DNA of 64,000 nt, taken from positions 310,001 through 374,000 of the forward strand of contig CANLLN010000001.1 of the NCBI GenBank assembly GCA_947491945.1. Reading direction: 5' to 3'. The notes under the pieces were generated by a model. That model was not told where the DNA came from. It saw nothing but the letters and a program-made list of their open reading frames with translations, and ran no database searches. Both the position numbers and the translations under genes were made by a program. This document shows, piece by piece, positions 30,330-55,005 of this stretch; position 1 is the first letter of the stretch; every line of letters begins with the position of its first letter. Source of the DNA: an uncultured Carboxylicivirga sp. GTDB lineage: Bacteria; Bacteroidota; Bacteroidia; Bacteroidales; Marinilabiliaceae.

Positions 30330-33300
30330 TTATTCTTTAATAAATTTATGTACGCTGCGTTTTATCCCTTTGTTTAGTTCAAGGAAATACAGGCCTATGG
30401 CTAAACGGGAGACATCCAGGCCATCTTGCGGCCGGGTTTGATGAATAAGCAGGCTGCCCCGTGTGTTATAGACCCTGACCTCATGAACCAATTGGCTTGT
30501 TTTAAAATAAAGTTTATTGGTGGCAGGATTAGGGTAGATTACAGCCGACAAATGCTCTTGTTCCTCAATGCCATTTGCATTAGTAGCAGAGGTGTAGGAT
30601 ATCTTCAAATCATCAATCCAAACTTTATAGTCTTGCCCCGGTGTAAGATCCATATTATTGAAATAGAGAAATAAACGATTGTTAGTGAGTGAAACTGTGT
30701 CAAAAAAGTATTGATAATCAGTGCTTAGCGTGTGCCATTTGCCGACTTGATTACTTGCTCCTATCTTCACCTGATTCAATCCTTCAGTATTGGTGCGGGC
30801 GCGATAGGAAACTATGTAGTGCTCGCTGCTGAAATTGAGCAGATCGATGGTTCGTAGTTTAGCCTGGGCACCATTACCACTACTGGCTTTGGGGTTAAAG
30901 CTGATTTCCAGAGCCTGGCTGCCTTCGTTACTGCTGTCATCCACAACGAGGGCGCTAAAGTTATTTAAAAAGTCGCCTTTCCATAAACGCTCCCAGATGG
31001 ATTGGCTGTTGAGCCACAAGTCACCGTTAAACGATTCATTGAGATTGTAGTTTTCGAAATGTTCGATAAAGGGAAAACTTATAGGGTCCGTGGTTGGCTG
31101 GTTAAAGAAGCTGTTTTGCCGGGTCCACCAGCTGGCAGCTTTGGTCTTTAGCTCTTCTACTACCGATGCATAGTCGGGGTCATTGGCCAGGTTGATTGTT
31201 TCCAACGGATCGGTTTCGTAGTCGTATAATTCCATGGCTTTGATACGCGAGTCATCCCAGTCAATCATGTCGGTGCGGTCGCTGCTGCTTTGCATCCATA
31301 AGGTAAGTCGGTAACGATCGGAACGGAAGGAGTAGCTGGCACCACCGCCTGATCGGTATTCTGTCACGGCCAGGTCTTTGTTCAGCGATTCACCTCTTAG
31401 CACCGGCGCCAGGCTTTGCCCCTGTAGCTTTGACGATGGAATCTCCAATCCGGCCAGGTCGCACAGGGTGGGGTAGATGTCGATAAATTCAACGGGAGCA
31501 TGGTGTTGCCCACTGGTTCCGTTGGGAGCGCTAATAATCAGCGGGGCGCGGGCAGCATTTTCAAACTGCGTGTGTTTGCCCCATTGGTTATGGTCGCCCA
31601 GGTGATAGCCATGGTCACCAAAGAGCAGGATCACCGTATTGTCCATCAGGTTCTTTTCTTCCAGCTTATCCAATAGTTTACCCACTTGTGCATCAATATA
31701 GGAAACACAGGCATAGTAACCATGCAGGAGCTGCCGTTGATCATCGGGGCTGAGCAAGCCATCGCCCAGTGTTGGGTCGTTATATGTCCATGTGTCTGGT
31801 ATATCCGTGTAGCCTATAGGTTCAGGTGTGTGATAAGCATAATCGGGACTGCCGGCGGCCACTTTTTGAAAGGCTGCCAAATCAATGGTGTGGCGGTCAT
31901 ACAGATCCCAGTATTTTTTGGGGGCTATAAAAGGTATGTGAGGCTTTTTAAAACCAACTGCCATAAAAAAGGGCTGCTTGTTGGAACTCAGGGCATCCAG
32001 TTTATTGAGGGCATCTATGGCTATTTGCCCATCCGTATACCCATCGTCATCAACTCCTTCGGGGCCTTGTTCGGTGGCCGTGTTGGGGCTTACCCGGTAG
32101 TTGCTGCCCTGTACAAATGGCGGGTAGTGGTCAGGATAGGTGTAATCGTTCGGCTGCGTGTAAGGAACGGACCAGCTGAAAATATCATGCTGATCGTCCA
32201 CGTTGCGGGGGTCGTATACCTTGCCACAGGCTGCTGTTGAATAGCCTTTATTGATAAAATACTCGGGCAATGTTACCACTTTAGGATTCTCTGTTCTCAT
32301 TAGCGATGAGAGGTTGCGAATGCCGGTACCGTCGGGTGTTAAACCACTCATAATACTGGCGCGCGAAGGCCCACACACGGCCCATTGACAGTAGGCTTTG
32401 GTGAATACCACACCCTGTTCGGCCAGACGGTCGATGTTAGGTGTGTGTATCTGCGATTCGACGTAACAGTTTAGCAAGGGTTTAAGGTCATCAACGGCAA
32501 TCATCAAAACGTTGTGTTTGGGTTGGATAATTTTAGGTTTAACAACCAGGTAGTTAACGCTGTATTTTTTCGCCTCGAACACATGGTCGCCGGTATAGTT
32601 GGCCTTGTAGGGTTCGATGGTGGCAAAATTATCAGGGCCGCCACCCGGCGTATTGCCTGACCGGTCATTGATGTAGAATTTCTTGTCGCCGGCCTCAATG
32701 CTGTTGGCATAAAACTCGTGCCAGTACAGGTCGGCCGCTTGTGCATTGAGTGCTTCCAAATCCAGTTTCACTGTTTTAGGTGTGTCGTTGCTGTTGATAA
32801 TGATCAGACCGATTTCGCCAGAGCTAAAGGTAGATGCGTAAACCTGAACAGATGCATTATCGGAGTTGCTTGCCACCATCTGGTCGCCAAAGCTGCGTTC
32901 AAAATACTGATAAGGGATGTAGCTCTGGCGTGGGGTGTAATCGTCTTGGTCGGGATCATTTTTGGCCAGAAAGCCTTTGCTTTCCTGTGCACTCTCGCTC
33001 CAGTTCCATTCCGATACCCATAAATCAATCATGCCATAGCCGTGCTTAATGGCTTCGGCCAATACCTGCGTTATGAAAATGCCATTGACCATGGTGCAGT
33101 TGATGGGGCCGCGTGAGTTAAACTCCGTCATGGCCACCGGGAAATAATCGCGGGCTTTATCGGTGTATTTCTCAACGCAATTGAGCAAGGTGGTATGCAC
33201 GTCTCCTACCTGCGGCACGCTGGCTAGTATGTTTTCGGCAGTTGCCTCCTTTACGGTAGTAAAATAGTTATGCACCACCAAAAAGTCGGCATGGTTTTGT

Positions 33301-34103
33301 ACTTCGGGTAGCAGGGTGCTGTTCCAGTCATCGTCTTCGCGGGTAACCACCGCTCCCACTTTTATGGAAGGGTCAATCGCTTTCATGGCTTCTGCAAACA
33401 CGCAAAAATCTTCGCCATATTCCTTACCCGTGGTGATGACGCCATCAATCTCAAAGCCTTCTTCCCATTTGCCATAGCATTCGTTGCCTATCTCCCAGTA
33501 TTTAATATTGGCCTTGAGTTCGATATTTAATTGGTGGACAAAACCAGCCGCGTAATCGGCAGCCTGCTGTACACGTGCCTGGCGTGTTCCTTGGGGAGTG
33601 ACACCGTAACGGGCATAAAAATAGTTAACCACAACAGTGGCTTCGCTGTTGGCATTGTTTTTAAACTGAACAAACAGTTCGGGGCTCATACTGCTGTTTT
33701 GGGTGCCGTCAATTGATTTGATGGGTATTCGTGTTTCAGCGGGTGTTTGGCCGTCGTAAAAATAGAGGTTAGAGCCACTTCCCGCTGGAAAACGCATGGA
33801 GCCAATGCCGGCGTTGGCATAAAGGTGCGTGCGGTTTAGCTGATCATTACTATTCCGAAAGGGGGTGTTAACACCAAAGTGAGTAGGCAGTACCTTGTTA
33901 AGGGTGGTGTTGACATCAATGGTGATGGTTGCATCGGCAGTGGATGATTGGGGTAAGTCAATGGGACTAAAAGATGACGGCGTATTAAAGGTTTTTGCCT
34001 GCCAGGTGTCGTTAAAAAACGGACGTTGGTTTTGGGCCTTTAACGACAGCATCAAGGAGCAAAATAGCACCCACGTTAATATGGCTGGTAATGATTTTTG
34101 CAT
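30330..34103 (-). CDS. Secreted glycoside hydrolase-S1 sulfatase fusion with T9SS signal
   Basis: One 1257-aa exported protein with two catalytic parts. After the signal peptide (ending MLSLKAQ), residues about 60-530 form a clan GH-A-like hydrolase resembling arabinofuranosidase-type families (GH51/GH39/GH79-like): acid/base Glu208 in YWEIGNECYG and nucleophile Glu327 in AMTEFNSRG. Residues about 535-1010 are a complete S1_7-like sulfatase: MIAVDDLKPLL, Cys577 in AVCGPSRAS (converted to formylglycine), LLFGDHGYHLGDH. A carbohydrate-binding-like beta domain (about 1020-1165) follows, then a T9SS type A sorting domain (IYPNPATNKLYF). The two activities should act on one sulfated glycan outside the cell. 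The exact GH family is unsure. HTCS-type operators precede it. Confidence 0.9.
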   Translation of the reverse strand: MQKSLPAILTWVLFCSLMLSLKAQNQRPFFNDTWQAKTFNTPSSFSPIDLPQSSTADATITIDVNTTLNKVLPTHFGVNTPFRNSNDQLNRTHLYANAGIGSMRFPAGSGSNLYFYDGQTPAETRIPIKSIDGTQNSSMSPELFVQFKNNANSEATVVVNYFYARYGVTPQGTRQARVQQAADYAAGFVHQLNIELKANIKYWEIGNECYGKWEEGFEIDGVITTGKEYGEDFCVFAEAMKAIDPSIKVGAVVTREDDDWNSTLLPEVQNHADFLVVHNYFTTVKEATAENILASVPQVGDVHTTLLNCVEKYTDKARDYFPVAMTEFNSRGPINCTMVNGIFITQVLAEAIKHGYGMIDLWVSEWNWSESAQESKGFLAKNDPDQDDYTPRQSYIPYQYFERSFGDQMVASNSDNASVQVYASTFSSGEIGLIIINSNDTPKTVKLDLEALNAQAADLYWHEFYANSIEAGDKKFYINDRSGNTPGGGPDNFATIEPYKANYTGDHVFEAKKYSVNYLVVKPKIIQPKHNVLMIAVDDLKPLLNCYVESQIHTPNIDRLAEQGVVFTKAYCQWAVCGPSRASIMSGLTPDGTGIRNLSSLMRTENPKVVTLPEYFINKGYSTAACGKVYDPRNVDDQHDIFSWSVPYTQPNDYTYPDHYPPFVQGSNYRVSPNTATEQGPEGVDDDGYTDGQIAIDALNKLDALSSNKQPFFMAVGFKKPHIPFIAPKKYWDLYDRHTIDLAAFQKVAAGSPDYAYHTPEPIGYTDIPDTWTYNDPTLGDGLLSPDDQRQLLHGYYACVSYIDAQVGKLLDKLEEKNLMDNTVILLFGDHGYHLGDHNQWGKHTQFENAARAPLIISAPNGTSGQHHAPVEFIDIYPTLCDLAGLEIPSSKLQGQSLAPVLRGESLNKDLAVTEYRSGGGASYSFRSDRYRLTLWMQSSSDRTDMIDWDDSRIKAMELYDYETDPLETINLANDPDYASVVEELKTKAASWWTRQNSFFNQPTTDPISFPFIEHFENYNLNESFNGDLWLNSQSIWERLWKGDFLNNFSALVVDDSSNEGSQALEISFNPKASSGNGAQAKLRTIDLLNFSSEHYIVSYRARTNTEGLNQVKIGASNQVGKWHTLSTDYQYFFDTVSLTNNRLFLYFNNMDLTPGQDYKVWIDDLKISYTSATNANGIEEQEHLSAVIYPNPATNKLYFKTSQLVHEVRVYNTRGSLLIHQTRPQDGLDVSRLAIGLYFLELNKGIKRSVHKFIKE

Positions 34104-34133: not shown

Positions 34134-34200
34134 TAAAAATAAAAGATACTGCAATTGAGGGGGTTGTGCTTTTCGTTCTGCGTAGGATGAAAAATCGTTC
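34134..34200 (-). promoter_or_regulatory. Predicted HTCS operator and promoter of the GH-sulfatase fusion gene
   Basis: Reading the minus strand: half-site GAACGATTTTT (34200-34190), a second half-site GAACGAAAAGC whose start is 22 bp further on (34178-34168), exactly 26 nt, then TATTTTTA (34141-34134), a 5-of-6 match to the fixed bases of TAnnTTTG. The start codon is about 30 nt beyond. The same geometry occurs at three other promoters in this window. Confidence 0.72.
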
Positions 34201-34211
34201 AATGCGTTTTT

Positions 34212-34278
34212 GAATCAAAATTACACCCAGCAGGAACGATTTTTCAACCCTGTGCATGCCTTGACATTAATACTTTAG
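34212..34278 (+). promoter_or_regulatory. Predicted HTCS operator and promoter of the secreted binding-protein gene
   Basis: Half-sites GAATCA (34212) and GAACGATTTTT (34234-34244) start 22 bp apart; 26 nt later is TACTTTAG (34271-34278), a -7-like box. The strong half-sites here and in the opposite promoter form a perfect 13-bp inverted repeat, TGAAAAATCGTTC (34188-34200) and its complement (34234-34246). The downstream start codon is about 27 nt past the -7 box. Confidence 0.72.
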
Positions 34279-34305
34279 TGGAAGCAAATTTAAAATTCAA
34301 TGATT

Positions 34306-35703
34306 ATGAGAAAAATTTTTACAATGCTTGGTTTAGGTCTGTGTACATTAAGTATGTCAGCACAGCTAATTTGGGAAGGGAGTTTTGAGCAAACCCCGCC
34401 AGCAGGTCAGCAAGATGCTTTTTTAGCAGTAGGTACTTCTGTGGTGAGCAGAGTAGCCTGGGAAGGTAAAATGGCTACCGATTCTTATTGGAATAATTTG
34501 TGGGTAGATAAGAATACAGAATACAATAATAAGATGACTATTGTTTCAGATGCTCATAGTGGTAGTCAGGCAATTTTATTTGAAATCAGTCATGTCGATA
34601 AAGGTAACAGACTACGTTCTACTGTTAAAGATTATACTGCAGGAGACTGGGTGAAAGCTACTTTTTGGGCAAAGACCGATGCGGCCGGTGTGGCTAAAGG
34701 GGGTAAGTTAATTGGTTTATTTGAGAATTACTCGCAGGAATTGACTACCGAGTATCAGGAATTTGTATCCTATGGTCAGATTGGAGGCAGTGGACGCATT
34801 GAGCTTTGGTTTCCGGATGCCGGAACCTCTGAAGTTGATAATTACAAGGTGTGGCTTGATGATGTAAGCTTGGAATGGGCGCCCAGTGGACCTCCTTACA
34901 TGCCTGATCTTGAAAATTTTCCGTGCACTGAAGATTTTGAGTCAAACGTTTATGTGATTGGCAATGAGATAGCCAAGCAAAACGCTACAGATGGAGAATT
35001 GGATAGCTGGCCTGTTACCACGCCACAGGTTTTCGATCGTTTTTGGAGAGGAAACAACACTACGGAGTATCTGGCTACCGTAGATGGCGATGCTTATGAT
35101 GGCAGCAAAGCCATGAAGCTGGCTATTGAAACAAAGCTGGATGCCACAGCAGGTACGGCTTATGATTTCCGTTTGCGTACGGTAAATCTTCCGGAGGGCG
35201 ATTATAAAATTACCCTTTATGCCAAGACGGATGCGGCCGGTGAGGGCATCGCTAAAATTGGTTTTACCAGTGAGGCGGATAGCTGGGAAACCTTAACCAC
35301 CGAGTATAAGGAGTACAGCGGTGTGGGTAATGTAACCATTAACCCGAGCAATAATACCGGACGTTTAATCGTGTTCTATACGTCCGATCCTACTTTGACC
35401 GTAACACAGTCGTATAATATGTGGATTGATGGTATAAAAATAGAAGAGGGTACAGCTACGGCTATCGAAGATAAAAAGGCCGAACAGGTATCGCTTTACC
35501 CCAATCCCGTGGGCAATGAGTTGTTCATTAACACGGCGGGACGTATCGATCAGGTTGAGTTATATAGTTTATCCGGGCAATGCTTAAAAGTGGTGAACGA
35601 GGTTTCAGGAGCTATTAATACCAATGAATTACCACAAGGTATTTATATTGCTTCCATTACGGTAGATGGTCAAACATTGCAAAAGAAATTCATTAAAAAA
35701 TAA
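34306..35703 (+). CDS. Secreted protein with two carbohydrate-binding-like domains and T9SS signal
   Basis: Likely a secreted glycan-binding protein. I favour the ATG at 34306 (MRKIFTMLGLGLCTLSMSAQ), two codons after another ATG at 34300. Two related beta-sandwich domains follow: about 30-200 (MTIVSDAHSGSQAILFEI, YKVWLDDVSLEW) and about 235-390 (FWRGNNTTEYLATVDGD, YNMWIDGIKIEEG). The second closely mirrors the C-terminal binding-like domain of the fusion protein encoded divergently (ERLWKGDFLNN, YKVWIDDLKISY). A type A T9SS sorting domain ends the protein (SLYPNPVGNELFINTAG). No catalytic motif is seen. It has the same predicted operator as the PUL's susC and is first in line before two sulfatase genes. 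Confidence 0.82.
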   Translation: MRKIFTMLGLGLCTLSMSAQLIWEGSFEQTPPAGQQDAFLAVGTSVVSRVAWEGKMATDSYWNNLWVDKNTEYNNKMTIVSDAHSGSQAILFEISHVDKGNRLRSTVKDYTAGDWVKATFWAKTDAAGVAKGGKLIGLFENYSQELTTEYQEFVSYGQIGGSGRIELWFPDAGTSEVDNYKVWLDDVSLEWAPSGPPYMPDLENFPCTEDFESNVYVIGNEIAKQNATDGELDSWPVTTPQVFDRFWRGNNTTEYLATVDGDAYDGSKAMKLAIETKLDATAGTAYDFRLRTVNLPEGDYKITLYAKTDAAGEGIAKIGFTSEADSWETLTTEYKEYSGVGNVTINPSNNTGRLIVFYTSDPTLTVTQSYNMWIDGIKIEEGTATAIEDKKAEQVSLYPNPVGNELFINTAGRIDQVELYSLSGQCLKVVNEVSGAINTNELPQGIYIASITVDGQTLQKKFIKK

Positions 35704-35715
35704 TATTTAACTTCC

Positions 35716-35751
35716 GTCCCCTTGCCTTTGAAACTGAGCAAGGGGACTTTT
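35716..35751 (+). terminator. Rho-independent terminator (possibly partial read-through)
   Basis: The arms GTCCCCTTGC and GCAAGGGGAC (10 bp) pair around a 12-nt loop and are followed by TTTTG. It lies just after the binding-protein gene and before the sulfatase gene on the same strand. It may make the first gene more abundant than the sulfatases that follow. Confidence 0.87.
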
Positions 35752-35784
35752 GATTTAGGGAAAGAGTAGATTAATTAATTTTGT

Positions 35785-37266
35785 ATGAGAATAGTACTAA
35801 ATATTATTTGGGGAGCCATGTTGTTTACTTTACCATTAGTGGTAAATGCAAGCAACAAGCAGTTAGCAAAACAGCCAAATATCCTTATTTTTTATGTGGA
35901 TGATTTGGGCTGGATGGATTTAGCCTGTCAGGGATCAAAGTTTTATGAAACACCTGCTATTGATAAGCTGGCCGCTGAGGGTGTTCGTTTTACCCAGGCA
36001 TATACCGCTCACCCCCGTTGTGTGCCGGCCCGTTATGGGGTGATGACCGGGAAGTACCCGGCCCGAGGGCATGTGCCGGGCAAAGGTGGGCTGGTTCCTG
36101 AAGACCTAACCATTGCAGAGGCATTGCAGGCAGGCGGTTATTCAACTTTTTTCACCGGTAAATGGCATTTGCTCTTTAAGGATAAGGAAGGCAATATGCC
36201 CGAAAAGCAGGGGTTTGATGTGAACGTGGCAGGTGGAGCGGCCGGATCACCGCCTACCTATTGGTATCCGTACCGAAAGGGCGAGTCAACAGCCGCCGGT
36301 CGAAAGGGTTTTAAAAAAGACGAAATACATGGATTGGAAGATGGCCATGAAGGTGAGTACATCACCGACCGTATCACCGACGAGACTATTGAATTCATGC
36401 AGCAGCATGTGAAGCAACAGCCCGATCAACCTTTCTTTGCTTTTCTTTCGCATTATGGTGTACACACACCTTTCGAGGCCAAACCTGAGTTGGTAAAGAA
36501 GTATCAAAAGAAATTGAAAACCATGCAGTATGATTTGCCGGAGTACGAAAAAACGCTGACCGGTGATACTAAAATGCGTCAGGACTTTCCGGTTTACGCG
36601 GCAATGATCGAGAGCATTGATCAAAGCATGGCTAAGGTAAGCAAAATCCTTGAGGAATTGGGGCTTGCCGATAATACCATTGTCATTTTTACGGCCGATA
36701 ACGGTGGGCTGTCAACACGGGGCAATACCCGTAAATTGGCCACATCGAATTACCCGCTTCGTTACGGGAAAGGCTGGCTTTACGAAGGCGGTATTCGCGA
36801 AGCTTTTATTGTAAAATGGCCGGGCGTAACGCCTAAAGGGCAGGTGTCAGAGGCTCTGGTGACGGGTACCGATATTTATCCAACGGTATTGGCCATGGCC
36901 GGCTTGCCGCTGCGTCCCCACGATCATTTGGATGGGGTGGATGTGACGGCCGCTTTTAGAGGTGAGAAATTTGAGCGTGAGACACCCATCTTTTGGCATT
37001 CTCCAATGGGACGACCAACAAGCACCGGCGATCGCAACAGCACGGCTGTGCGTCTGGGCGATTATAAGCTGATTGACTGGTACGATGAAGGAATCATTGA
37101 GCTATACAACCTGAAAGAGGACATTGGCGAACAACACGATCTTTCCAAAAAAATGCCGAAGAAGGCAGAGGCCTTGCATCAGCTCGTTATAGAGTGGCGG
37201 CAATCTGTCAATGCTGTGAAGATTGACCCTAAAAATCATAAATGGAGCAAAAAGGGAAAGCAGTAA
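35785..37266 (+). CDS. S1 sulfatase (CVPAR type)
   Basis: Exported arylsulfatase-like enzyme that removes sulfate esters from sugars. Signal peptide about 1-22 (TLPLVVNA). Metal-binding start FYVDDLGWMDLACQG; catalytic Cys79 in HPRCVPARYGVMTGKYPARG, the site converted to formylglycine; later GKWHLLF, SHYGVHTPF, IFTADNGGLS and YEGGIREAFIVKWPG. 493 aa, full length. Its motifs and spacing closely match the partial sulfatase at the right edge of the window (HPRCVPSRY), so the two are paralogs in one S1 subfamily; I will not guess the number. The position of the sulfate it attacks is unknown. Confidence 0.94.
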   Translation: MRIVLNIIWGAMLFTLPLVVNASNKQLAKQPNILIFYVDDLGWMDLACQGSKFYETPAIDKLAAEGVRFTQAYTAHPRCVPARYGVMTGKYPARGHVPGKGGLVPEDLTIAEALQAGGYSTFFTGKWHLLFKDKEGNMPEKQGFDVNVAGGAAGSPPTYWYPYRKGESTAAGRKGFKKDEIHGLEDGHEGEYITDRITDETIEFMQQHVKQQPDQPFFAFLSHYGVHTPFEAKPELVKKYQKKLKTMQYDLPEYEKTLTGDTKMRQDFPVYAAMIESIDQSMAKVSKILEELGLADNTIVIFTADNGGLSTRGNTRKLATSNYPLRYGKGWLYEGGIREAFIVKWPGVTPKGQVSEALVTGTDIYPTVLAMAGLPLRPHDHLDGVDVTAAFRGEKFERETPIFWHSPMGRPTSTGDRNSTAVRLGDYKLIDWYDEGIIELYNLKEDIGEQHDLSKKMPKKAEALHQLVIEWRQSVNAVKIDPKNHKWSKKGKQ

Positions 37267-37351
37267 TATGTTTAGCCATTATTGTGCCAGTAAAAGACTG
37301 CTCTGGTAATAAAGGGGCTATACATGTAATTTAAAAACAAAATACGTTTTT

Positions 37352-38881
37352 ATGAAGAAGATTTTTGTGTTTGCAGTGTTGGGTCTCATTTTATTTATGA
37401 ATGTAGGGCATTGCCGGGCGGAGAAGAAGCAGAAAACCAATGTCCTGTTTATCGTGGTGGATGATTTAAAACCCATGTTAGGTTGCTATAGCGATCAACA
37501 GATCATTAGTCCTAACATGGATGCTTTGGCCGGACAGGGTGTGCTATTTGAAAATGCATATTGTCAGCAGGCGGTGTGCGCTGCTTCACGCGTCAGTGTC
37601 TTTAGCGGGCTCCGACCCGATCAGACCAGGGTATGGGATTTAAAAACCAATATGCGGGATGTAAATCCTGGTGTGGTGACCTTACCGCAGTATTTTCAAA
37701 AACATGGCTACCAAACAGCCGCTGCCGGTAAAATCATTCATGGGGCAAAAAATAATGACCCACGGTCGTGGAGCATTCCTTATCAGGAAGACAGGCATTA
37801 CACCTACGCCAAGGGTTTTAAGTACCCGGCCAATGGAAAATACCAAAATAAAGTCATTCATAAAGCCTATCGCGAAAGTAAAAAGGAGAAATTGGGCTGG
37901 AAAGCAACCAATCAGTATCTGAAGGAATGTGGATTGTCGCCTTCGGTGGAGTGTTTGGATGTGCCTGACGATGCTTATGAAGATGGTGCGGTGGCTGTAA
38001 AGGGAATGGAGCTGTTAAATGAGATGAGTCAAGCGGAGCAGCCTTTTTTCCTGGCCCTGGGTTTTCATAAGCCGCATCTGCCTTTTGCCGCGCCTAAAAA
38101 ATACTGGGACATGTACCAGCGATCAGACATCAGCCAGGCCCCTTTCATGGAAAAATCCGAAGGGGCACCTGTGCATGCTTATCATAGCTGGGGAGAGTTG
38201 CGTAACTACTCCGATATACTGCCAACGGGCCAGGTGCCGGCAGATAAGCAAAAGGAATTGATTCACGGGTACAAGGCCTGCGTAACTTACGTGGATGCCC
38301 AAATAGGTAAAGTCTTGACGAAGCTTGATGAATTGGGATTGCGTGAAAATACGGTGGTTGTTTTATGGGGCGATCATGGCTGGCACCTGGGCGATCATGG
38401 CCTTTGGTGTAAGCACTCCAATTTTGAGCAGGCGGTTAAAGCCCCGTTGATCATTTCTGCCCCCGGCATGAAGCAAGGCAAAGTGGCCGCCACCATGGCC
38501 GAGTTTGTAGATATGTATCCGACTTTGTGCGAGCTAACCGATTTGCCCGTTGGTGAGCATTTAGACGGATTGAGTCTGGTGCCCGCACTTAAGAACCCCA
38601 AAAAGGAAGTAAAAAACTATGCCATCAGTCAGTTTCCGCGCGGGGATAAAATAATGGGTTATACCATTCGTAATCAGCAGTACCGCTATACGATATGGTT
38701 GCAGGGGCCATTCCGTAAGCAACAGATCTATACCCAACCTAAAATTGTGGCGACCGAGTTGTATGATTATATCAACGATCCGCTTGAAAAAACATCACTG
38801 GCAGATGATACGCAGCATGAGGCGATTCGGGTATCCATGCAAACACAGTTGCTGGAAATATTAAATAGTCAGAAACGATGA
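37352..38881 (+). CDS. S1 sulfatase, S1_7-like (CAASR type)
   Basis: Exported sulfatase of the iduronate-2-sulfatase-like branch (S1_7-like by motif). Signal peptide about 1-23. Motifs: VVDDLKPMLGCYSDQQ, catalytic Cys76 in QQAVCAASRVSVFSG, PQYFQKHGYQTAAAGKI, FHKPHLPFAAPKKYWDMY, LWGDHGWHLGDHG, EFVDMYPTLCEL. The usual Pro at Cys+2 is Ala (CAASR), which still fits the permitted C-x-(P/A)-S-R pattern. 509 aa. The stop overlaps the next gene's start by 4 bp (ATGA), so sulfatase and SGNH esterase are translationally coupled and may act on one glycan. Close relatives in this window: the fusion sulfatase domain and the gene at 58987. Confidence 0.93.
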   Translation: MKKIFVFAVLGLILFMNVGHCRAEKKQKTNVLFIVVDDLKPMLGCYSDQQIISPNMDALAGQGVLFENAYCQQAVCAASRVSVFSGLRPDQTRVWDLKTNMRDVNPGVVTLPQYFQKHGYQTAAAGKIIHGAKNNDPRSWSIPYQEDRHYTYAKGFKYPANGKYQNKVIHKAYRESKKEKLGWKATNQYLKECGLSPSVECLDVPDDAYEDGAVAVKGMELLNEMSQAEQPFFLALGFHKPHLPFAAPKKYWDMYQRSDISQAPFMEKSEGAPVHAYHSWGELRNYSDILPTGQVPADKQKELIHGYKACVTYVDAQIGKVLTKLDELGLRENTVVVLWGDHGWHLGDHGLWCKHSNFEQAVKAPLIISAPGMKQGKVAATMAEFVDMYPTLCELTDLPVGEHLDGLSLVPALKNPKKEVKNYAISQFPRGDKIMGYTIRNQQYRYTIWLQGPFRKQQIYTQPKIVATELYDYINDPLEKTSLADDTQHEAIRVSMQTQLLEILNSQKR

Positions 38882-39972
38882 AAAGCATTATTTTAACAAC
38901 TATCATGGTGGTGATGACGGCTGTGGCTTGTAAAAGTCCGGGAGCCCAGGGGGCTATGAAAGCAGTGGATCTTACCAGCAAGTGGATAGTTGTTAAGGGA
39001 GCTAATTATGTGAATCGGGATGAAGGTCAGCTGACCTTCTCCCGTTTTTCGGAAGAAACATTAAATGCGCCCGTGAGCGATGCCATGTTTAATGCTGATA
39101 AGGCTCGCACTAATAGTGGCATCCGCATATTCTTTAAGACAAGGAGTGCTCAGGTGTGCCTTACATTTAAACCGATGCAAGGACAAAACCGGGGTAGCGA
39201 ATTTGCCATTTATCAAGATAGCGTACAGACGCATGTTTTTAACTTCAAAGGAGATAAGGCAAAGGAGTTCATGAGTTTTAAATTCGAAAACTCATCGGGC
39301 GATGAAACTCTTTTTGAAGTGACCCTGCCCAGTTTTGCCAATGTAGCTCTCGTTGGAATGGAGTTGGACGAAGAGGCCACTTTATTGCCTGTTGCAGCGC
39401 AAAATCAGCCCGTGTACCTGGCTCTTGGTAACAGTATCACCCATGGTGTAGGACAGGGGTCGGCTACCTTTCTAACTTATCCTTATTTATTGGCCAAGGC
39501 CTTAAACTTTGATTACTACAACCTGGCGGTTGGTGGTGCAAAAATATCACCGGCCATTGCCCGCATGATGCGTGAAATGCCGCTGGCTGATGTGATTACC
39601 ATTTTAATAGGTTACAACGACTTGATGTTTAAAGATAAATCAGTAGAAGAGTTTTCACAATCGTATTTAGCTTACCTGAAGGAAATCCGACACAATCAGC
39701 CGAAGGCAAATATTTATTGCATTACCTTAACCCATACTCGTGCTAGAGCCAATGAGCGAACCGGCCTGACACCTGAGGATTTCCGCATCGCTTTAAAGCA
39801 TTTGGTTTACCAGCTGCAATCGGAAGGCGACACGAAACTGCACCTCATTGAAGGCGATAAAATCACCTCGGAAGCTAACCTGCGACCTGATTTGTTGACC
39901 GATAAAGTGCATTTTAGTATTGATGGTGCGGCTTTATTTGCTGATACCTTGAGTAAAATTATTTCCTATTAG
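38878..39972 (+). CDS. SGNH/GDSL-family lipoprotein esterase
   Basis: Probable carbohydrate esterase (for example a deacetylase) at the cell envelope. Lipoprotein signal with Cys18 (MTAVACKS). Residues about 30-170 form a beta-sandwich. The SGNH domain starts with LALGNSITHG, nucleophile Ser186 (the common GDS is GNS here). Block II Gly lies in LAVGGAKIS, the block III Asn in IGYNDLMF, and the catalytic Asp342/His345 in TDKVHFSIDG. 364 aa. It is translationally coupled to the preceding sulfatase, so it likely removes acetyl or similar groups that hinder desulfation or cleavage (inference). Confidence 0.87.
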   Translation: MKSIILTTIMVVMTAVACKSPGAQGAMKAVDLTSKWIVVKGANYVNRDEGQLTFSRFSEETLNAPVSDAMFNADKARTNSGIRIFFKTRSAQVCLTFKPMQGQNRGSEFAIYQDSVQTHVFNFKGDKAKEFMSFKFENSSGDETLFEVTLPSFANVALVGMELDEEATLLPVAAQNQPVYLALGNSITHGVGQGSATFLTYPYLLAKALNFDYYNLAVGGAKISPAIARMMREMPLADVITILIGYNDLMFKDKSVEEFSQSYLAYLKEIRHNQPKANIYCITLTHTRARANERTGLTPEDFRIALKHLVYQLQSEGDTKLHLIEGDKITSEANLRPDLLTDKVHFSIDGAALFADTLSKIISY

Positions 39973-39987
39973 ATTTATTCAAGCGCC

Positions 39988-40019
39988 AACTTTTTCAAAG
40001 TTTAAAACTTTGAAAAGTT
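39988..40019. terminator. Bidirectional terminator hairpin
   Basis: AACTTTTTCAAAGTTT pairs with AAAACTTTGAAAAGTT with one bulge. It lies in the 58-bp gap between the convergent SGNH (+) and HTCS (-) genes and has A/T tracts on both sides. Confidence 0.75.
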
Positions 40020-40030
40020 ATTTACTTCAC

Positions 40031-43000
40031 TTACTTTTTCAAATATTGACTAGGGGTAACACCAAAGTATTTTTTAAATGTCTGGCTAAAATATTTCGGA
40101 TCGGTAAAACCAATCATATAGGCTGTTTCGCTGATGTTATGGCCGTCCTCTTTCATGATACGGGCAGCTTCTTTTAATTTGATGGTCATCAGAAACTGTT
40201 GTGGCGATAAATCTGTTAATGACTTTATTTTGCGGTATAAAACCGGGCGACTCATACCCAGGGCCTGCGCTGTTTGTTCAACACTAAGCTTTTCACTGTC
40301 GATATGCGTAATAATATGCTGTTTAATTTTCTCCAGAAATGCCTGATCGGTTTGATTGGTAGAAGCCTCTTCTATTTGCGAGGAGGGTTCTCTAAAGGTT
40401 TGCTTAAGGCGTTGCCTGTTTTTTAGCAGGTTACTGATTTGCGCCCTCAAGAGCTTAATATCGAATGGCTTTTCCAGGTAGGCATCAGCCCCGTGTTCCA
40501 GACCTTCGCGTTTGTAGTCGGGCGAATCAAGTGCTGTCAGTAGTACGATGGGGATATGGCAGGTGGACAGATCATTTTTAAGTTTCATACAGAGTTGATG
40601 GCCATTCATTTTAGGCATCATTACATCTGACACAATGATATCGGGCATGTGTTCAGTTGCTAGTTTCATCCCTTCTTCGCCATCGGCTGCTTTCAACACC
40701 CGGTATTGTGTATCGAACTCAATGGCCAGACTATCCAGCAGTTCTGGGTTATCTTCCACCAATAGTAGTTTTGGTCCTGAGGAATTTGAATTTAATGTAT
40801 CCGCAGTTCTGCTGTAAATAGGGGTGAGGGCACTTTCTTCGGCATCAAAATGCCGGGTTTCATCCGGGGTGAATAATTTTTTGCCCAGGGGCAGTTTCAC
40901 CGTGAAGGTTGAGCCCATACCATATTCGCTCTTGAAGGATATTTTGCCTTTGTGCAGTTCAACCAGTTGCTTGCTCAGCATTAAGCCTACACCACTGCCT
41001 ACCTCTTTGGAGTTAATGGCATTGGTAGCCCGGTAATAGCGTTGAAAAATATTTTTTTGTTGGTTGGCCGGTATGCCTTCTCCCGAATCCTGTACATGAA
41101 TAGTGGCATATTTGGCTGTGTACTCAGTACTAATTTTGATCGTTCCACCGGCTGGCGTATACTTAAAAGCGTTAGAAAACAGATTAAACATTACCTTTTC
41201 CATCTTACTCCGATCGATCCAGATGTCTTCGCCATGTTCAGCCAGTGCTGTCTTAACCTTAATTTGCTTCTCACTGGCCAGTGGTGTAAAGGACTCTAAA
41301 CGTTCGGTAATGAATTGATTAAGGTGTGTTTTCTCCACCTGTAGCTGCATCTTTTGTAGGTCAGCCTTTTGAAAATCCAGCAACTGATTCACGAGGTTGG
41401 TCAGGCGGTCCACGTTTCGTTTCACCAGGTTCAGGTTACGATCCTCAGCTTCGTCTTTACCACCGGCCTCCACCATTTTTTCAATGGGCAGCTTTATCAG
41501 CGAAAGGGGCGTTCTTAAGTCGTGGGCAATGGATATAAAAAACTGTTGTTTCTCCGAGGCATGGCGTTCCTGAATAATGATGTGGTAATAGTGCATATTT
41601 AACAGTATTAATCCCAGCAGAACAAGGGCATACAGCACATAGGCCACAGGTGTTTTCCAGAATGGCGGAGCAATACTGATTTGTATCGTCTTAACCTGGT
41701 TTTGCCACACACCATCATCGTTGGTTACCATTACTTTTAAGGTGTAGTCGCCGTGGGGTAGCTTGGAGTAGATAGCTTCGCGCACTGCGGTAGGACCATT
41801 CCATTGCTCCTCGAAGCCCTCCAGTTTCCATTTATACCTTACATTTTGGGGATTGGTGTAGCAGATGGTGCCGAACTCAAAGCTCAGTGAGTTTTGATCG
41901 TGTTGAAGCTTTAACACCTGCTGCGAATTGATGTTTTCGGTTAACACGCCATCCGGATCAATCTCTACTTTTTGACCAAACAGGCTCATGCTCATTAATA
42001 AAGGCGTGCTTACTTGTTCCGATTTAGTGATATTATCCGGGTGAAACCAAGAGATGCCTTTGGACCCACCGTAAATAAGCCGACCCGAAGAATGCAGGCA
42101 AGCTGCGTTTTCAGAAAATTCTGTATTGGCAAGGCCATCACTGCTATTGTAGTTATCAAAAAGATGTGTTGAGTCGTTTAGCACCGATAAACCACCGGTT
42201 GAACTTACCCAAAGTCGCTCTTGCTGATCCCATAAGATGCTACGGATATAACCGGAAGGCAGGTTGTTATTCTCATAGGTTTTCAGCTCGTCGTTTGCCA
42301 TATCCCATTCGAGAAGTCCGTTTACATCGGTACCCAGAAATACTTTATCCTTTGAGGGATGCTTACGGATGCAGATAATGCGGCTTTTGAGCAATAGGCT
42401 TTGGGAAGGACGGGAAACTTCCAGCGTGGCTTTGTCCACCATAAAAAGGCCAAACAGCGTGCCAACCAGTACTTTGTTTTTGTACTCACAAATCGATCGC
42501 ACGTTACTGATATTAACCGTTTGAGTAGTTTGAGCTTTTTCATCTATAATACTGATATTTCCCCATATACCACCGGTCCATATCCGGCTCTGGCTGTCGC
42601 ATATAACCTGGTAAAGATGATTGGTTTGTGTTGTGAAAGGGCCGGTGGAGCTTTTCGTAATGACACGTTTTCGCCCGTTGGATGGTTCTATTTTAATCAG
42701 ACCGCGTCCATAAGTGGCTACCCAAATAGCATCATTCTTACTTTTGCACATCGACATGACATGAAAGGGTTTCTGAAGCGTTTTTTTTAAGGCCGGGATG
42801 TGCTTCCACTTATTTTTTTCAGGCGTGTAAATGCTAATTCCTGTTTTGGTACCGAACCAAAGTTGTTTATCGTGTTCTAAAACAGCATTAACAACATTGT
42901 TACGCAGGCTGTTATGTATGTGGGGTATATGCTTGAGTACGCTAAATTGCTTTTTGTTTGGGTTGGCAATATTAATACCGCCTCCATAAGTGGCTACCCA

Positions 43001-43987
43001 CAAAATATCATCCGGACTGTAGTAAAGTTTGTAAACACCATTGGAAGACAGTGAGTTAATATTGTTGTCATCGGCGAAATAGGATTCTTTAACCGCCAGT
43101 TGTTTATCTGTAATGTAAAGCCCAATGCCATCAAGGGCTATGGCCAGATGGTTTTTGTCAGGTGTGCTAATAATATCCGTTACGGGATAGTTCTTTTCAT
43201 TGTTACTAAGGTTTTTACGGGCAGTAAGCTGGAGTTGATTTTGGTGAATCTCAAATTTGAAGATCTCCGAATTGCGTGAGCCCATAAACAGCGTGTCCTC
43301 CTCCTGATGTAAGCACATGATGTCAATCTTAGAAAGTAGTTGGTTCAGCTGCCTGTCGGATGATAAACCAACCATTTCTTTCGATGACTTATTGATTAAA
43401 TGCAGACCATTGACAGTGCCCACCCAGATATGCTTGTCGTCGCAGAGGCTAATGTCATTGACAGCCTGCGATACTTGTTTAATGGCTGATAGTTCAGAAG
43501 TTTCGATGTTGAAATGATAAAGACCACCCGTTGTGCCAATCCAAATGCTTTCATCATCTTCCGATAGGATGGCGTAGATATTAAACAAAGCATCGTTGTG
43601 TTCGAAAGGCAGTACCTTATAAAAAGCGTCTGCTTTACGGTTATAGGCATATAGGTTGCCGTTTTTAGTACCACACAGAATATCGTATTTATCAGAAGTA
43701 ACCAGGCAGTTAATGATGTCATCGTTTGGATAAAGGCCATCTGGTGAAGATAATGAATAGTGCATAATGTCGGCTCCGTTGAACTTGTCCAGTCCATTGT
43801 GCGTAGCCAGCCACATAAAGCCTTCTTTGTCCTGAATGACTGAAACCACGCGGCTGTTTTTTAGGCCTTCATCGACTGATATCTGGTCGAATCGATAGTT
43901 GTATTGAGCAGCAGCACCATTGCAGGTGCAAAATAGGCAAAGAATCAGGAAGGTACACTTAATTAAAACCGGCTTGAGCAAACTCAT
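40031..43987 (-). CDS. Hybrid two-component system regulator (HTCS)
   Basis: Single-protein sensor and transcription activator for the surrounding PUL. Signal peptide about 1-28. The periplasmic sensor has many two-component propeller repeats (about 30-700; IWIGTTGGLYHFN, LWFGTKTGISIYTP) and a Y_Y_Y domain (about 715-785). One membrane helix lies near 790-810. Cytoplasmic parts are HisKA with His822 (SIAHDLRTPLSL), a HATPase (FQRYYRATNAINSKEVGSGV), a receiver with Asp1121 (IIVSDVMMPKMNG), and an AraC-type HTH at the end (LSVEQTAQALGMSRPVLYRK, FKKYFGVTPSQYL). Such proteins bind an oligosaccharide in the periplasm. Its own promoter carries the shared operator, so positive autoregulation is likely. 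Confidence 0.96.
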   Translation of the reverse strand: MSLLKPVLIKCTFLILCLFCTCNGAAAQYNYRFDQISVDEGLKNSRVVSVIQDKEGFMWLATHNGLDKFNGADIMHYSLSSPDGLYPNDDIINCLVTSDKYDILCGTKNGNLYAYNRKADAFYKVLPFEHNDALFNIYAILSEDDESIWIGTTGGLYHFNIETSELSAIKQVSQAVNDISLCDDKHIWVGTVNGLHLINKSSKEMVGLSSDRQLNQLLSKIDIMCLHQEEDTLFMGSRNSEIFKFEIHQNQLQLTARKNLSNNEKNYPVTDIISTPDKNHLAIALDGIGLYITDKQLAVKESYFADDNNINSLSSNGVYKLYYSPDDILWVATYGGGINIANPNKKQFSVLKHIPHIHNSLRNNVVNAVLEHDKQLWFGTKTGISIYTPEKNKWKHIPALKKTLQKPFHVMSMCKSKNDAIWVATYGRGLIKIEPSNGRKRVITKSSTGPFTTQTNHLYQVICDSQSRIWTGGIWGNISIIDEKAQTTQTVNISNVRSICEYKNKVLVGTLFGLFMVDKATLEVSRPSQSLLLKSRIICIRKHPSKDKVFLGTDVNGLLEWDMANDELKTYENNNLPSGYIRSILWDQQERLWVSSTGGLSVLNDSTHLFDNYNSSDGLANTEFSENAACLHSSGRLIYGGSKGISWFHPDNITKSEQVSTPLLMSMSLFGQKVEIDPDGVLTENINSQQVLKLQHDQNSLSFEFGTICYTNPQNVRYKWKLEGFEEQWNGPTAVREAIYSKLPHGDYTLKVMVTNDDGVWQNQVKTIQISIAPPFWKTPVAYVLYALVLLGLILLNMHYYHIIIQERHASEKQQFFISIAHDLRTPLSLIKLPIEKMVEAGGKDEAEDRNLNLVKRNVDRLTNLVNQLLDFQKADLQKMQLQVEKTHLNQFITERLESFTPLASEKQIKVKTALAEHGEDIWIDRSKMEKVMFNLFSNAFKYTPAGGTIKISTEYTAKYATIHVQDSGEGIPANQQKNIFQRYYRATNAINSKEVGSGVGLMLSKQLVELHKGKISFKSEYGMGSTFTVKLPLGKKLFTPDETRHFDAEESALTPIYSRTADTLNSNSSGPKLLLVEDNPELLDSLAIEFDTQYRVLKAADGEEGMKLATEHMPDIIVSDVMMPKMNGHQLCMKLKNDLSTCHIPIVLLTALDSPDYKREGLEHGADAYLEKPFDIKLLRAQISNLLKNRQRLKQTFREPSSQIEEASTNQTDQAFLEKIKQHIITHIDSEKLSVEQTAQALGMSRPVLYRKIKSLTDLSPQQFLMTIKLKEAARIMKEDGHNISETAYMIGFTDPKYFSQTFKKYFGVTPSQYLKK

Positions 43988-44051
43988 GTGGATTTTTTTA
44001 ACTTAAAATTTATCAAAAGTACTGAATATTTGTGAGTCGGGTTTGTCAAGG

Positions 44052-44118
44052 CATAAGTATTTAAATATCCGCCTGCTCAGGTAGTGCAGATGATTCAAAA
44101 AGGTGGTAAGTATCGTTC
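44052..44118 (-). promoter_or_regulatory. Predicted HTCS operator and promoter of the HTCS gene itself
   Basis: Minus strand: GAACGATACTT (44118-44108), then GAATCATCTGC starting 22 bp on (44096-44086), 26 nt, then TACTTATG (44059-44052), a 5-of-6 match to TAnnTTTG. The start codon is about 65 nt downstream. Half-site order differs from the susC promoter but spacing is identical. Confidence 0.65.
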
Positions 44119-44286
44119 ATGCCGGCAGTATTCCTGGTCTTATGCTAATAGGTATCACTAGTTGTGCATTGCCTTTTTTGTTGCTGCAGCAGGGTGATAA
44201 TAGGAATTTCATGCCGGGCATGGAGCTAAAGTCGTTGCTTTATTACTCCTGAATAAGAGTCATTTATACAGGGCTCGTTATTTAGT

Positions 44287-44353
44287 GAATCATCGACCTA
44301 CCTTAAGCGAACGATTTTTATATCTTGTCATCATGGCACTGTCCTTAATATTG
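44287..44353 (+). promoter_or_regulatory. Predicted HTCS operator and promoter of the PUL susC
   Basis: GAATCATCGAC (44287-44297) and GAACGATTTTT (44309-44319) start 22 bp apart, followed by 26 nt and TAATATTG (44346-44353), a -7-like box. The susC ATG is 37 nt further. The operator sits where an AraC-type activator would contact RNA polymerase and where no good -33 TTTG exists. Confidence 0.72.
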
Positions 44354-44390: not shown

Positions 44391-47300
44391 ATGAAGAAAT
44401 TGATGTTAGGCTTAGTTGTCCTATTAATATCTGCTCTCAGTTTTGCACAGAGTGGCATTACTGTAGCAGGTAAAGTAACGGATACATTCGGAGAACCCTT
44501 GCCTGGTGTTTCAGTGGTAATTAAAGGCACAACCAAGGGTACTATTACCGATGTACAGGGACAATACAGCCTGAAAGTATCAGCGGATCGGGAGGTGCTA
44601 GTTTTCTCGTTCATTGGGTTTAAAAAGTACGAAAGACAAGTTGGCTCAAACAGAATCATCGACCTGGTGATGGAGGATGAAATTACCGATTTGGATGAGG
44701 TGGTGGTAGTAGGATACGGCGAGATGCGAAAGAGCGATGTGACCGGCGCCGTTAGCTCCGTAAAAGAGTCGGATGAAGTAGCCAGGCAGTATCCTTCTGT
44801 CGATATGTTGTTGCAAGGTCGTGCTTCCGGATTGCAGGTAACGGGTAATGCCGGTAGTCCCGGAAGTGCGGTGAGTGTCCGTATTCGCGGTACAAACAGC
44901 TTACGCAGTAATAATGAGCCTTTGTATGTGGTGGATGGGGTATTAATTTCCACCGCCGGCACCGATGTGTCGGATCCATCTACTGATGCCAATGAATTGC
45001 AATCGCCACAGAATGGCTTAACCGGATTAAATCCGCAGGATATTGAGTCGATTGAGGTGCTGAAGGATGCCTCAGCAACGGCGATCTATGGGTCGAGAGG
45101 TGCTAACGGTGTAGTGTTAATCACTACCAAAAGCGGACAGAAAAACACTGGTGGAAATGCCAAGGTATCAGCCTATGGTTCGCTGGAGTGGAACACCATT
45201 GAGCGCAAGTTGGAGTTGCTCGATGGGCCCGGATGGGCTATGTACCAGAATGAAGCAGATCAGCTGAAAGGTTTTGATCCTAAGTACCATATTGATGGCA
45301 ATCAGGTTTATAGGTTAAGTACTGATGCGGACAATAACCCGGTTATTGGCGATGTGCCTTATGATGAAGTAAACTGGCAGGACGAGATTTATCAAACCAC
45401 GATGAGTTACAATGCGGGTTTATCAATTAGTGGGGGTTCAGAAAAGTCGAGTTATTATTTTTCAATGGGTATGAACGATCAGCGAGGTATCGTAGAAACC
45501 ACACGCATTAAAAAGGGCGATTTACGCTTTAATTATGATCGTGATATTAGTTCGCGTCTGAAAATGCAAACCCGCACCAGCATGATGTATCAGGATGGTA
45601 CCTTCGCACAGGCAGGCAGTAAATCGGGTGGAAACCGTAGTTTTACCAAGCAGATATTGTCGTACCGCCCACTGATTAGTAGCGATGACACTGAAGGTGA
45701 TGATGATGAATTAGATTTGGAGGTTTCTAATCCTTATGCCTGGCTAACTGATTATGATGATAATACCAAGGAAATCAGAATTAATCAGTCTGTTGCGTTT
45801 ACTTATGAAATTGCCAAAGGATTAAAATACAAGCTGAACGGCGGTATCGATTATCGAAAAAAGGATCGAACCAAGTTTTATGACTTAGGTGTATTTGTAG
45901 GCCGAAAGGAAAATGGATTGGCCAACTACTCGTATCAGGATCGAAAGTCGTTTGTGATTGATAACCTATTGATGTATAACCGTAATTTCAGACGTAAGCA
46001 TAAAATTAATGCGGTTGCAGGGGTAACCTACGATGGTGTGAATACTCAAAATAAATTATATGAAGTAAAAGACTTTCCGGTAAAAAACCTGGGGTCGGAC
46101 TTTCCTCAGGGGGGACAAATTATTCTGCGTCCGATGACCATTTTAAACAGTGAGGAAGAAATGTTCTCCGTTCTGGGACGCGTGAATTATACATTTAAAG
46201 ATCGTTATGTGTTAACAGCCAGCTTTAGGGGCGATAAGTCATCTAAGTTCCAGGGAAGTAATAAATGGGGTTATTTCCCGGCGATGGCTGCGGCATGGCG
46301 TCTGATGGAAGAGCCATTTGTAAAGCAATTGAATGTTTTCTATAACCTCAAGCTTCGCGCAGGTTGGGGATTAACCGGTAATCAAGGTATTTCGCCCTAT
46401 CAAACACTGTCAACGTATTCGAGTGTGAATTATGTAAATGACGGGAATGCCAGCATCGTGGGTAACGTGCCTGCGCGCATACCCAATCCTGATTTGAAAT
46501 GGGAATCCACCGAGCAATATAATGCCGGATTAGACTTTGGTTTTTTCGAAGGCCGCCTAAGTGGTTCGGTAGATATGTATTATAAAACGACCAAGGATTT
46601 ATTGCAGGATATTGAAATTGGTCCATCAAACGGATTTACAAGTATCACCATTAATAGGGGATCTATTGTGAACCGGGGATTGGAGTTTATGTTGAATGGT
46701 GCACTGATCGAGAAAAAAGATTTTACGCTCGATCTTGGAGCAAATATCTCCTTTAACCGCAATAAAGTGAGGCCCCTGGGGCTGCCAACCAGCACGGTAT
46801 GGATCGATGGCCAGGAACAGCAGCGCGAATTGTTCTATGGTGGCAAAGTTTCAACCGGTACTTACTTTAAGCAACCCGCCAATATATTTATGGTTGACGA
46901 GGCCATGGGCTTGTTCTGGGGCTGGCAAACCAATGGTATTTATCAGGATGCTACCCAAGCCGGTGAAGGAGCTACTTTTGATGGTAATCCAAACCAGGCC
47001 GGTGACGTGATTTTTGTTGATCAAAACAATGATGGTAATATCGATGACCTGGATAAGACTATTATAGGTAATCCAAATCCTGATTTTGTTTATGGCTTTA
47101 ATATTGATGTTCGATACAAGCGTTTTACCTTAAGTGCCTTATTTGAGGGGGTGTACGGTGCCGATGTTGTTAACGCCTACAATATGGAGCTGGCTTACGC
47201 CGAAGGACGTGGAACCAATATACTGGTTGATGCCTATAAACAAGCCTGGCGCGAAGATGCCCCATCTAATGCCTATCCACGTATTGGCTATAATCTGAAT

Positions 47301-47573
47301 CAGTACCTGACCGATCGTATCGTGGAGGATGGTAGCTACCTGCGTTTAAATAACCTGACTGTAGGATATGATGTGCCCACCAAGTGGACCAATAACCTGA
47401 TAAGCAATGCACGTGTGTATGCATCGGGTCGTAACCTGTTTACCATTACCGACTATAGTGGATATAACCCGCAGATTACCAGTTTTATGAATGATGGATC
47501 TATCATGGGTGTCGACTGGGTAGGAACGCCTAATGCGCTTACATTTTTGTTGGGTGTAAACCTTACGTTTTAA
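44391..47573 (+). CDS. SusC-like TonB-dependent outer-membrane oligosaccharide transporter
   Basis: The importer of the sulfatase-rich PUL. Signal peptide ends at LISALSFAQ. N-terminal regulatory-like domain (GKVTDTFGEPLPGVSVVIKG) at about 25-105, plug with VVVGYGEMRKSDVTGAVSSV and VRIRGTNSLRSNNEPLYVVD, then a long beta-barrel ending LLGVNLTF. 1060 aa, normal for glycan SusC proteins. susD starts 18 bp after the stop. The HTCS operator unit lies just upstream. By context it takes up cello-oligosaccharide-type fragments that may keep some sulfate (inference). Confidence 0.97.
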   Translation: MKKLMLGLVVLLISALSFAQSGITVAGKVTDTFGEPLPGVSVVIKGTTKGTITDVQGQYSLKVSADREVLVFSFIGFKKYERQVGSNRIIDLVMEDEITDLDEVVVVGYGEMRKSDVTGAVSSVKESDEVARQYPSVDMLLQGRASGLQVTGNAGSPGSAVSVRIRGTNSLRSNNEPLYVVDGVLISTAGTDVSDPSTDANELQSPQNGLTGLNPQDIESIEVLKDASATAIYGSRGANGVVLITTKSGQKNTGGNAKVSAYGSLEWNTIERKLELLDGPGWAMYQNEADQLKGFDPKYHIDGNQVYRLSTDADNNPVIGDVPYDEVNWQDEIYQTTMSYNAGLSISGGSEKSSYYFSMGMNDQRGIVETTRIKKGDLRFNYDRDISSRLKMQTRTSMMYQDGTFAQAGSKSGGNRSFTKQILSYRPLISSDDTEGDDDELDLEVSNPYAWLTDYDDNTKEIRINQSVAFTYEIAKGLKYKLNGGIDYRKKDRTKFYDLGVFVGRKENGLANYSYQDRKSFVIDNLLMYNRNFRRKHKINAVAGVTYDGVNTQNKLYEVKDFPVKNLGSDFPQGGQIILRPMTILNSEEEMFSVLGRVNYTFKDRYVLTASFRGDKSSKFQGSNKWGYFPAMAAAWRLMEEPFVKQLNVFYNLKLRAGWGLTGNQGISPYQTLSTYSSVNYVNDGNASIVGNVPARIPNPDLKWESTEQYNAGLDFGFFEGRLSGSVDMYYKTTKDLLQDIEIGPSNGFTSITINRGSIVNRGLEFMLNGALIEKKDFTLDLGANISFNRNKVRPLGLPTSTVWIDGQEQQRELFYGGKVSTGTYFKQPANIFMVDEAMGLFWGWQTNGIYQDATQAGEGATFDGNPNQAGDVIFVDQNNDGNIDDLDKTIIGNPNPDFVYGFNIDVRYKRFTLSALFEGVYGADVVNAYNMELAYAEGRGTNILVDAYKQAWREDAPSNAYPRIGYNLNQYLTDRIVEDGSYLRLNNLTVGYDVPTKWTNNLISNARVYASGRNLFTITDYSGYNPQITSFMNDGSIMGVDWVGTPNALTFLLGVNLTF

Positions 47574-47590
47574 TCCAAAATACTAGAATA

Positions 47591-49177: not shown

Positions 49178-49197
49178 GTATACTGATTTATACATTA

Positions 49198-49319: not shown

Positions 49320-49352
49320 CAATTGTAACATTCACCTGTCAAAATAAGAAAG

Positions 49353-51671: not shown

Positions 51672-51677
51672 TTGTCA

Positions 51678-53366: not shown

Positions 53367-53376
53367 AATTATCCGT

Positions 53377-54984: not shown

Positions 54985-55005
54985 GGATCTCAGTATTTCA
55001 AAATT

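Follow-up and report, generated by a model that had tools for sequence, protein, structure and literature searches.

AraC of Escherichia coli binds araI1-I2 of araBAD through head-to-tail half-sites about two helical turns apart, the proximal of which reaches -35, in an activation of the class II type. Hybrid two-component systems (HTCSs) are a major class of regulator for polysaccharide use in Bacteroides (PMC11253607), and in B. thetaiotaomicron 16 of the 36 already have predicted direct-repeat motifs, with a mean distance of 21 bp (Ravcheev et al., 2013; PMC3878776). Gel shifts have been reported for the response-regulator parts of the HTCSs BT4124 and BT4663 on the promoters of susCD homologs (PMC11253607). 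The sigma-A promoter of Bacteroidota has two elements, whose spacing is described as variable (PMC7366714), and its -7 box is TAnnTTTG (PMC7366714; PMC9723704), which in Flavobacterium psychrophilum spans -12 to -5 (PMC9723704). Here we analyse a stretch of 64,000 nt (the window) from the genome of an uncultured Carboxylicivirga sp. (4,897,006 bases in 216 contigs), in which a polysaccharide utilization locus (PUL) carries four direct-repeat operators. Three face effector genes, namely susC, a fused sulfatase gene and the gene of a protein sorted by the type IX secretion system (T9SS), and one faces the gene of the local HTCS. The best explanation of the four sites, and in our view a very probable one, is that each is an activator operator of this HTCS adjoining a weak core promoter.

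With E. coli AraC the sites share the arrangement of the half-sites and, if the -7 box is placed as in F. psychrophilum, the position of the proximal one, while the sigma factor and promoter type are different and the regulator here would be phosphorylated and membrane-bound. That regulator combines a propeller sensor, HisKA/HATPase_c, a receiver and an AraC-type helix-turn-helix (HTH) domain in a single chain, as expected of an HTCS, and its sequence matches among solved chains include both hybrid two-component sensor entries and C-terminal ones. As in the Bacteroides motifs, an AraC-type HTCS goes with direct repeats about two helical turns apart at the promoters of PUL genes, but the genus and the half-site are different and the distance is 22 bp against the mean of 21 bp; a distance to a promoter element was not found in the available passages of that paper (PMC3878776). 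The targets of BT4124 and BT4663 are likewise susCD-homolog promoters, by gel shift there and as predicted from sequence here, and the terms direct repeat, half-site and spacing are absent from the main text of that study (PMC11253607). The -7 box is common to these sites and to the Bacteroidota sigma-A promoter (PMC7366714; PMC9723704), whereas the boxes of the effector promoters are conserved departures from TAnnTTTG. Searches of the text of open-licence papers turned up neither a fixed distance to the -7 box, nor the variant spacing described below, nor a distinct distance at the regulator promoter.

Each of the four units (Table 1) contains two GAAYSA half-sites 22 bp apart and, at +59, a box that agrees with TAnnTTTG at 5 of 6 positions, just as a sequence-only reading of the window had proposed. 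Direct repeats about two helical turns (22 bp) apart thus stand upstream of the PUL units, as in operators of the HTCS type. Every unit departs from the earlier pattern at a single position, which always falls within the box. Mismatch-free pairs of half-sites are restricted, within the window, to the four units, and the full pattern occurs nowhere else in it at up to 3 mismatches, with five extra matches at 4. A scan of the whole 4.9-Mb genome with at most 1 mismatch returned four matches, exactly the reported units, and the reversed pattern returned none. Because the pattern had been fitted to these four sites, conservation is the stronger test, and three of the four units come through it completely. 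We write the geometry as 22/37, that is, the period of the half-sites in bp and the number of nt that separate the start of the proximal half-site from the -7 box.

The half-site proved longer than the 11-mer first proposed: across 42 aligned units it spans about 17 bp and reads GAAYSATTTnTAYACCY. The pattern that yielded most of these rows already fixes part of the half-site, but it does not cover informative positions such as 11 to 15 in the distal copy and 33 and 34 in the whole unit. The tally leaves out six scan matches taken by eye for chance and near-duplicate units shared by G010 and G012 or by G006 and G008, and includes 10 further units. Similarity between units is confined to the half-sites and the box, and the spacers hold little information.

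Of 148 other genomes searched, 12 have an HTCS ortholog, with identities of 46 to 76%. Three HTCS matches, G007:C78, G030:C48 and G099:C145, have one in-frame stop each and may be pseudogenes or assembly errors. Orthologous loci keep the pattern at the effector promoters of susC (13/13), the fused sulfatase (11/11) and the T9SS-sorted protein (9/9), where the tallies count genomes in which the gene was located, orthologs of the last two having been sought in some of the 13. A box with at least 5 of 6 TAnnTTTG positions lies at +37 in all 33 of these promoters, and between +20 and +110 none of the other offsets recurs in more than three promoters of a class; the fixed distance between operator and -7 box therefore holds at the effectors. 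One contig (G022) carries the first part of susC alone, which reads as a SusC start, and the gene of G003 is counted as a T9SS-protein gene solely for its position and its sorting tail. An operator listing made independently of the box agrees with this picture. In a weight-matrix search with free spacing (20-23) and offset (35-38), the fused-sulfatase operators of G003, G006, G017 and G022 all came out as 22/37, though the scores of G017 (13.2) and G022 (10.8) are low. Operator and box are kept even before far-diverged susC genes, with 39% identity to that of the window in G006 and 37% in G061. The proposal of a single regulon is thus borne out to the extent that direct-repeat operators, probably of the HTCS, are found at all four transcription units.

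Scanning with the combined 22/37 pattern of operator and box at up to 3 mismatches gave 41 matches, spread over 13/13 genomes with the HTCS ortholog (5 of the 41 judged chance by eye, their context unchecked), one match over six genomes of the same genus without it, and 2 matches for the reversed pattern across the 19 genomes. Since the 22/37 pattern was refined on ortholog sequences, it is the reversed control and the six ortholog-free genomes that carry the test. Over 149 relatives, 40 genomes have matches; the 27 outside the ortholog set have 29 matches, near the level of the reversed control (25 over all 149). Neighbouring geometries gave 22 matches against 17 reversed (21/37) and 16 against 8 (22/36) in the 19 genomes, mostly at 3 mismatches, and just a few of them look real.

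If the box is placed at -12 to -5, as in F. psychrophilum (PMC9723704), the half-sites would extend roughly over -71 to -55 and -49 to -33, a position that fits the class II geometry of AraC, in which the proximal site lies over the upstream promoter element. A conserved TTTG (-33) between operator and box was not found in a gapless tally of the 42 units, for an element whose spacing is itself described as variable (PMC7366714). The box is TANNATTG in 13/13 susC promoters and TANNTTTA in 11/11 fused-sulfatase promoters; at the T9SS-protein promoter it is TACYTTAG in 7/9, the remaining two being TACATTTG (perfect) and TATATTGG. The earlier proposal of a TAnnTTTG box is thus sound at the level of 5 or more of 6 positions, but as an effector consensus it gives way to conserved, promoter-specific variants. 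At the susC and fused-sulfatase promoters the n positions vary while the off-consensus base is constant, which points to selection for a box one base off TAnnTTTG; because the genomes are related, shared descent contributes to this constancy. Taken together, the promoter-specific boxes suggest selection on weakness.

The promoter of the HTCS gene is built differently. An operator faces it in 11/13 ortholog genomes, and it had been expected to share the geometry of the effectors, but a box at +37 is present in the window only and absent in 10/10 other genomes with this operator, so that a +37 box is ruled out for this promoter; in G026 a perfect box, TAATTTTG, lies at +36, one base nearer. For this reason the TACTTATG box of unit 3 is most likely fortuitous, and the conserved HTCS box is that at 44021-44014. 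Counted from the start of the proximal half-site, 10/11 HTCS promoters have a perfect TAnnTTTG (6/6) at 74-76 nt.

The basis of the activator reading is the elements, their distances, their conservation, their co-occurrence with the HTCS and a link between recognition helix and half-site; from these we infer binding, phosphorylation, activation, sigma contact and what the weak boxes and the regulator promoter signify. Binding of a sugar by the sensor domain would lead to phosphorylation of the receiver, and two AraC-type DNA-binding domains would occupy the 17-bp half-sites head to tail, at a distance of two helical turns. The proximal half-site of the effector promoters would end about where the -33 element would be, so that the protein could touch the sigma factor, and this contact may compensate for a -7 box held off consensus by selection. 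At its own gene the operator would lie some 38 bp farther upstream of a perfect -7 box, and with that distance and that box the HTCS would be made at a basal level and at most be modestly self-tuned.

The operator that faces the HTCS gene may also not regulate that gene at all, and aid the divergent promoter from a distance or be a remnant. We consider this possible, if clearly the less probable view: there is no box at the effector distance and the conserved one is 38 bp farther, yet its spacing from the HTCS box stays within 74-76 nt in 10/11 genomes, against 97 to 562 bp between the two operators of the HTCS-susC region. The same range speaks against a fixed looping distance between those operators.

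A second alternative concerns the identity of the protein. AraC-family proteins are common, and a stand-alone AraC protein or another transcription factor might bind the operators in place of the predicted HTCS. This is improbable in our judgement, as this HTCS and the motif occur together (as does, admittedly, the gene cluster as a whole), the operator faces the HTCS gene in most ortholog genomes, and HTCSs with the same recognition helix have a similar half-site at other loci. The recognition helix of the first HTH is SRPVL in 30/30 rows of the ortholog alignment (duplicates and L123 included), against 3/63 non-orthologous domains. Across 163 non-orthologous loci, GAAC-type pairs (spacing 20-23, box 35-38) scoring at least 14, on a matrix built on the clade's own units, number nine, and all come from five HTCSs with helix SRPVL or SRPVV: three loci of G133 (of which one lies some 33 kb away from the HTCS gene), two of G008:C41, two of G685 and one each of L043 and G063. 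Each of these five further HTCSs has a GAAC-type 21-bp operator. L024 (G133), L043 and L157 (G008:C41) came from overall HTCS similarity, and the others were fetched through the helix, a domain match or an earlier match. In G336, whose helix is SRMQL, a GAAC-type pair above threshold was not found. Co-occurrence and the correlation with the recognition helix thus apparently link the cognate HTCS to the operators.

It is less probable still that the HTCS acts here as a repressor relieved by the sugar. The proximal half-site does reach about -33, from where a repressor could act too, but the operator leaves the -7 box uncovered, the effector boxes show the conserved departure from consensus that one would expect if the promoters depended on an activator, and a published account names BT1754, a known HTCS, as the activator of PUL22 (PMC11501099). 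Finally, chance or recent duplication of a single promoter, which the fitting of the pattern to four sites might invite, can practically be dismissed, as the similarity stops at half-sites and box and both are kept in 13 genomes, diverged orthologs included.

Several observations weigh against activation by the HTCS through one uniform geometry. Among the five additional operators two have low scores (14.0 and 14.4), the one of G063 is absent above threshold in the 1.5-kb flanks and was seen after the flanks were widened, and the box of L043 agrees at no more than 5/6 positions and lies at offset 35. L123, a second HTCS copy of G061 with 48% identity and the same helix (the genome also has a closer one), carries three half-sites with a 22-bp spacing but lacks a box at +37. 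Within the ortholog genomes, 21/36 is found at a sulfatase gene of G006 and upstream of the GH9 (glycoside hydrolase family 9) unit of G008, and single 21/37 and 22/36 sites occur as well. The HTCS-facing operator was not found in G006 and G008, where the HTCS gene is divergent from a sulfatase gene rather than from susC, and the HTCS-facing repeat of G017 is best read at 23 bp.

A strict 22/37 coupling is ruled out by these 21/36, 21/37 and 22/36 sites, and outside the clade the preferred geometry is shorter. Among 33 susC promoters near non-orthologous HTCSs (from a profile search; an earlier regular-expression finder gave 16, too few), the repeat period has its peak at 21 bp; among 13 promoters of the ortholog set, L123 included, the peak is at 22 bp. 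In 203,573 non-coding bases of the non-orthologous loci, repeats with at least 13/17 identities and a box at 33-43 nt number 36 at period 21 and 8 at period 22, with 0 to 12 at each other period from 14 to 30. A second, unrelated half-site, TATCTRAAA, forms 23 pairs at period 21 against 2-10 at each other period from 16 to 28, and those with a perfect box number 7 (six loci) at 21/36 and at most 1 in any other combination. The GAAC-type operators of four other HTCSs (G133, G008:C41, G063, G685) are 21/36 too. As a scan, the GAAC-type 21/36 pattern gave 66 matches in 149 genomes at up to 3 mismatches against 55 reversed, and therefore cannot be used alone. The geometry 21/36 is a preference, not a law. 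Since other HTCS loci favour 21/36, both steps are one base pair longer in the clade of the window, whose effector promoters have 22 bp and not exactly the 21 bp that is a mean in the literature rather than a strict criterion. The 22-bp spacing of the sequence-only reading accordingly stands for these promoters, and as a general rule becomes a variant of a broader 21-bp preference.

We see roughly even chances for an HTCS code that extends across Bacteroidota. Any half-site would be repeated after 21 bp and followed 36 nt on by the -7 box, the recognition helix would predict the half-site (SRPV[LV] giving GAAC), one lineage would have moved to 22/37, effector boxes would carry a selected one-base defect, and the regulator promoter would have a perfect box in a 75-nt geometry. 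HTCS regulons could then be read directly from sequence. A fixed ruler from operator to core promoter would make a weak two-box motif specific enough to find the regulon in a raw genome, and the paired shift from 21/36 to 22/37 would be a natural test of the spacing between an AraC-type dimer and RNA polymerase.

Table 1. Features of the locus, in positions of the window.
Feature	Position	Strand	Basis
Operator 1, faces fused-sulfatase gene	34162..34200 (half-sites 34200-34184, 34178-34162)	-	Pattern scan; 22/37 in 11/11 genomes
-7 box TATTTTTA, fused-sulfatase promoter, class TANNTTTA	34134..34141	-	Class kept in 11/11 genomes
Operator 2, faces T9SS-sorted protein operon	34212..34250 (half-sites 34212-34228, 34234-34250)	+	22/37 in 9/9 genomes
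-7 box TACTTTAG, T9SS-protein promoter	34271..34278	+	TACYTTAG in 7/9 genomes
Operator 3, faces HTCS gene	44080..44118 (half-sites 44118-44102, 44096-44080)	-	HTCS-facing operator in 11/13 genomes
Box TACTTATG, proposed earlier for HTCS promoter	44052..44059	-	Not kept at +37 in other genomes
Conserved -7 box TACTTTTG, HTCS promoter	44014..44021	-	75 nt from proximal half-site start
Operator 4, faces susC	44287..44325 (half-sites 44287-44303, 44309-44325)	+	22/37 in 13/13 genomes
-7 box TAATATTG, susC promoter, class TANNATTG	44346..44353	+	13/13 genomes
Predicted target of operator 1: fused sulfatase bearing a T9SS sorting tail	30330..34103	-	Domain search
Predicted transcription unit: T9SS-sorted protein, sulfatase, sulfatase, GDSL protein	34300..39972	+	Gene order
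HTCS regulator gene	40031..43987	-	Sensor propeller, Y_Y_Y, HisKA, HATPase_c, receiver, AraC-type HTH
Predicted transcription unit: susC, susD, GH3, GH9, sulfatase, major facilitator superfamily (MFS) transporter, GH94, two sulfatases	44391..62497	+	Gene order

Judging from gene order, the locus probably comprises four transcription units, each starting behind one of the reported sites. Besides the HTCS, its genes encode SusC and SusD, GH3, GH9 and GH94 enzymes, a transporter, a GDSL protein, several sulfatases and the T9SS-sorted protein. In the fused sulfatase (30330-34103) the sulfatase domain covers residues 531-885; the roughly 530 residues before it have no Pfam match at E 0.001, and the sole NCBIfam match, below cutoff, is to an arabinosylfuranosidase at residues 196-313. 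The combination of GH9, GH3 and GH94 with several sulfatases suggests a sulfated beta-glucan as the substrate of the PUL (34300-62497).

Two observations concern other HTCS loci. Upstream of the second HTCS copy of G061, three consecutive GAAC-type half-sites lie 22 bp apart (L123, 16318-16258, strand -). Near position 5524 of L020 (strand -), the locus of a different HTCS, a TGTTTAACACTTA repeat of period 22 is followed downstream by TATATTTG, possibly a second, independent 22-bp system.

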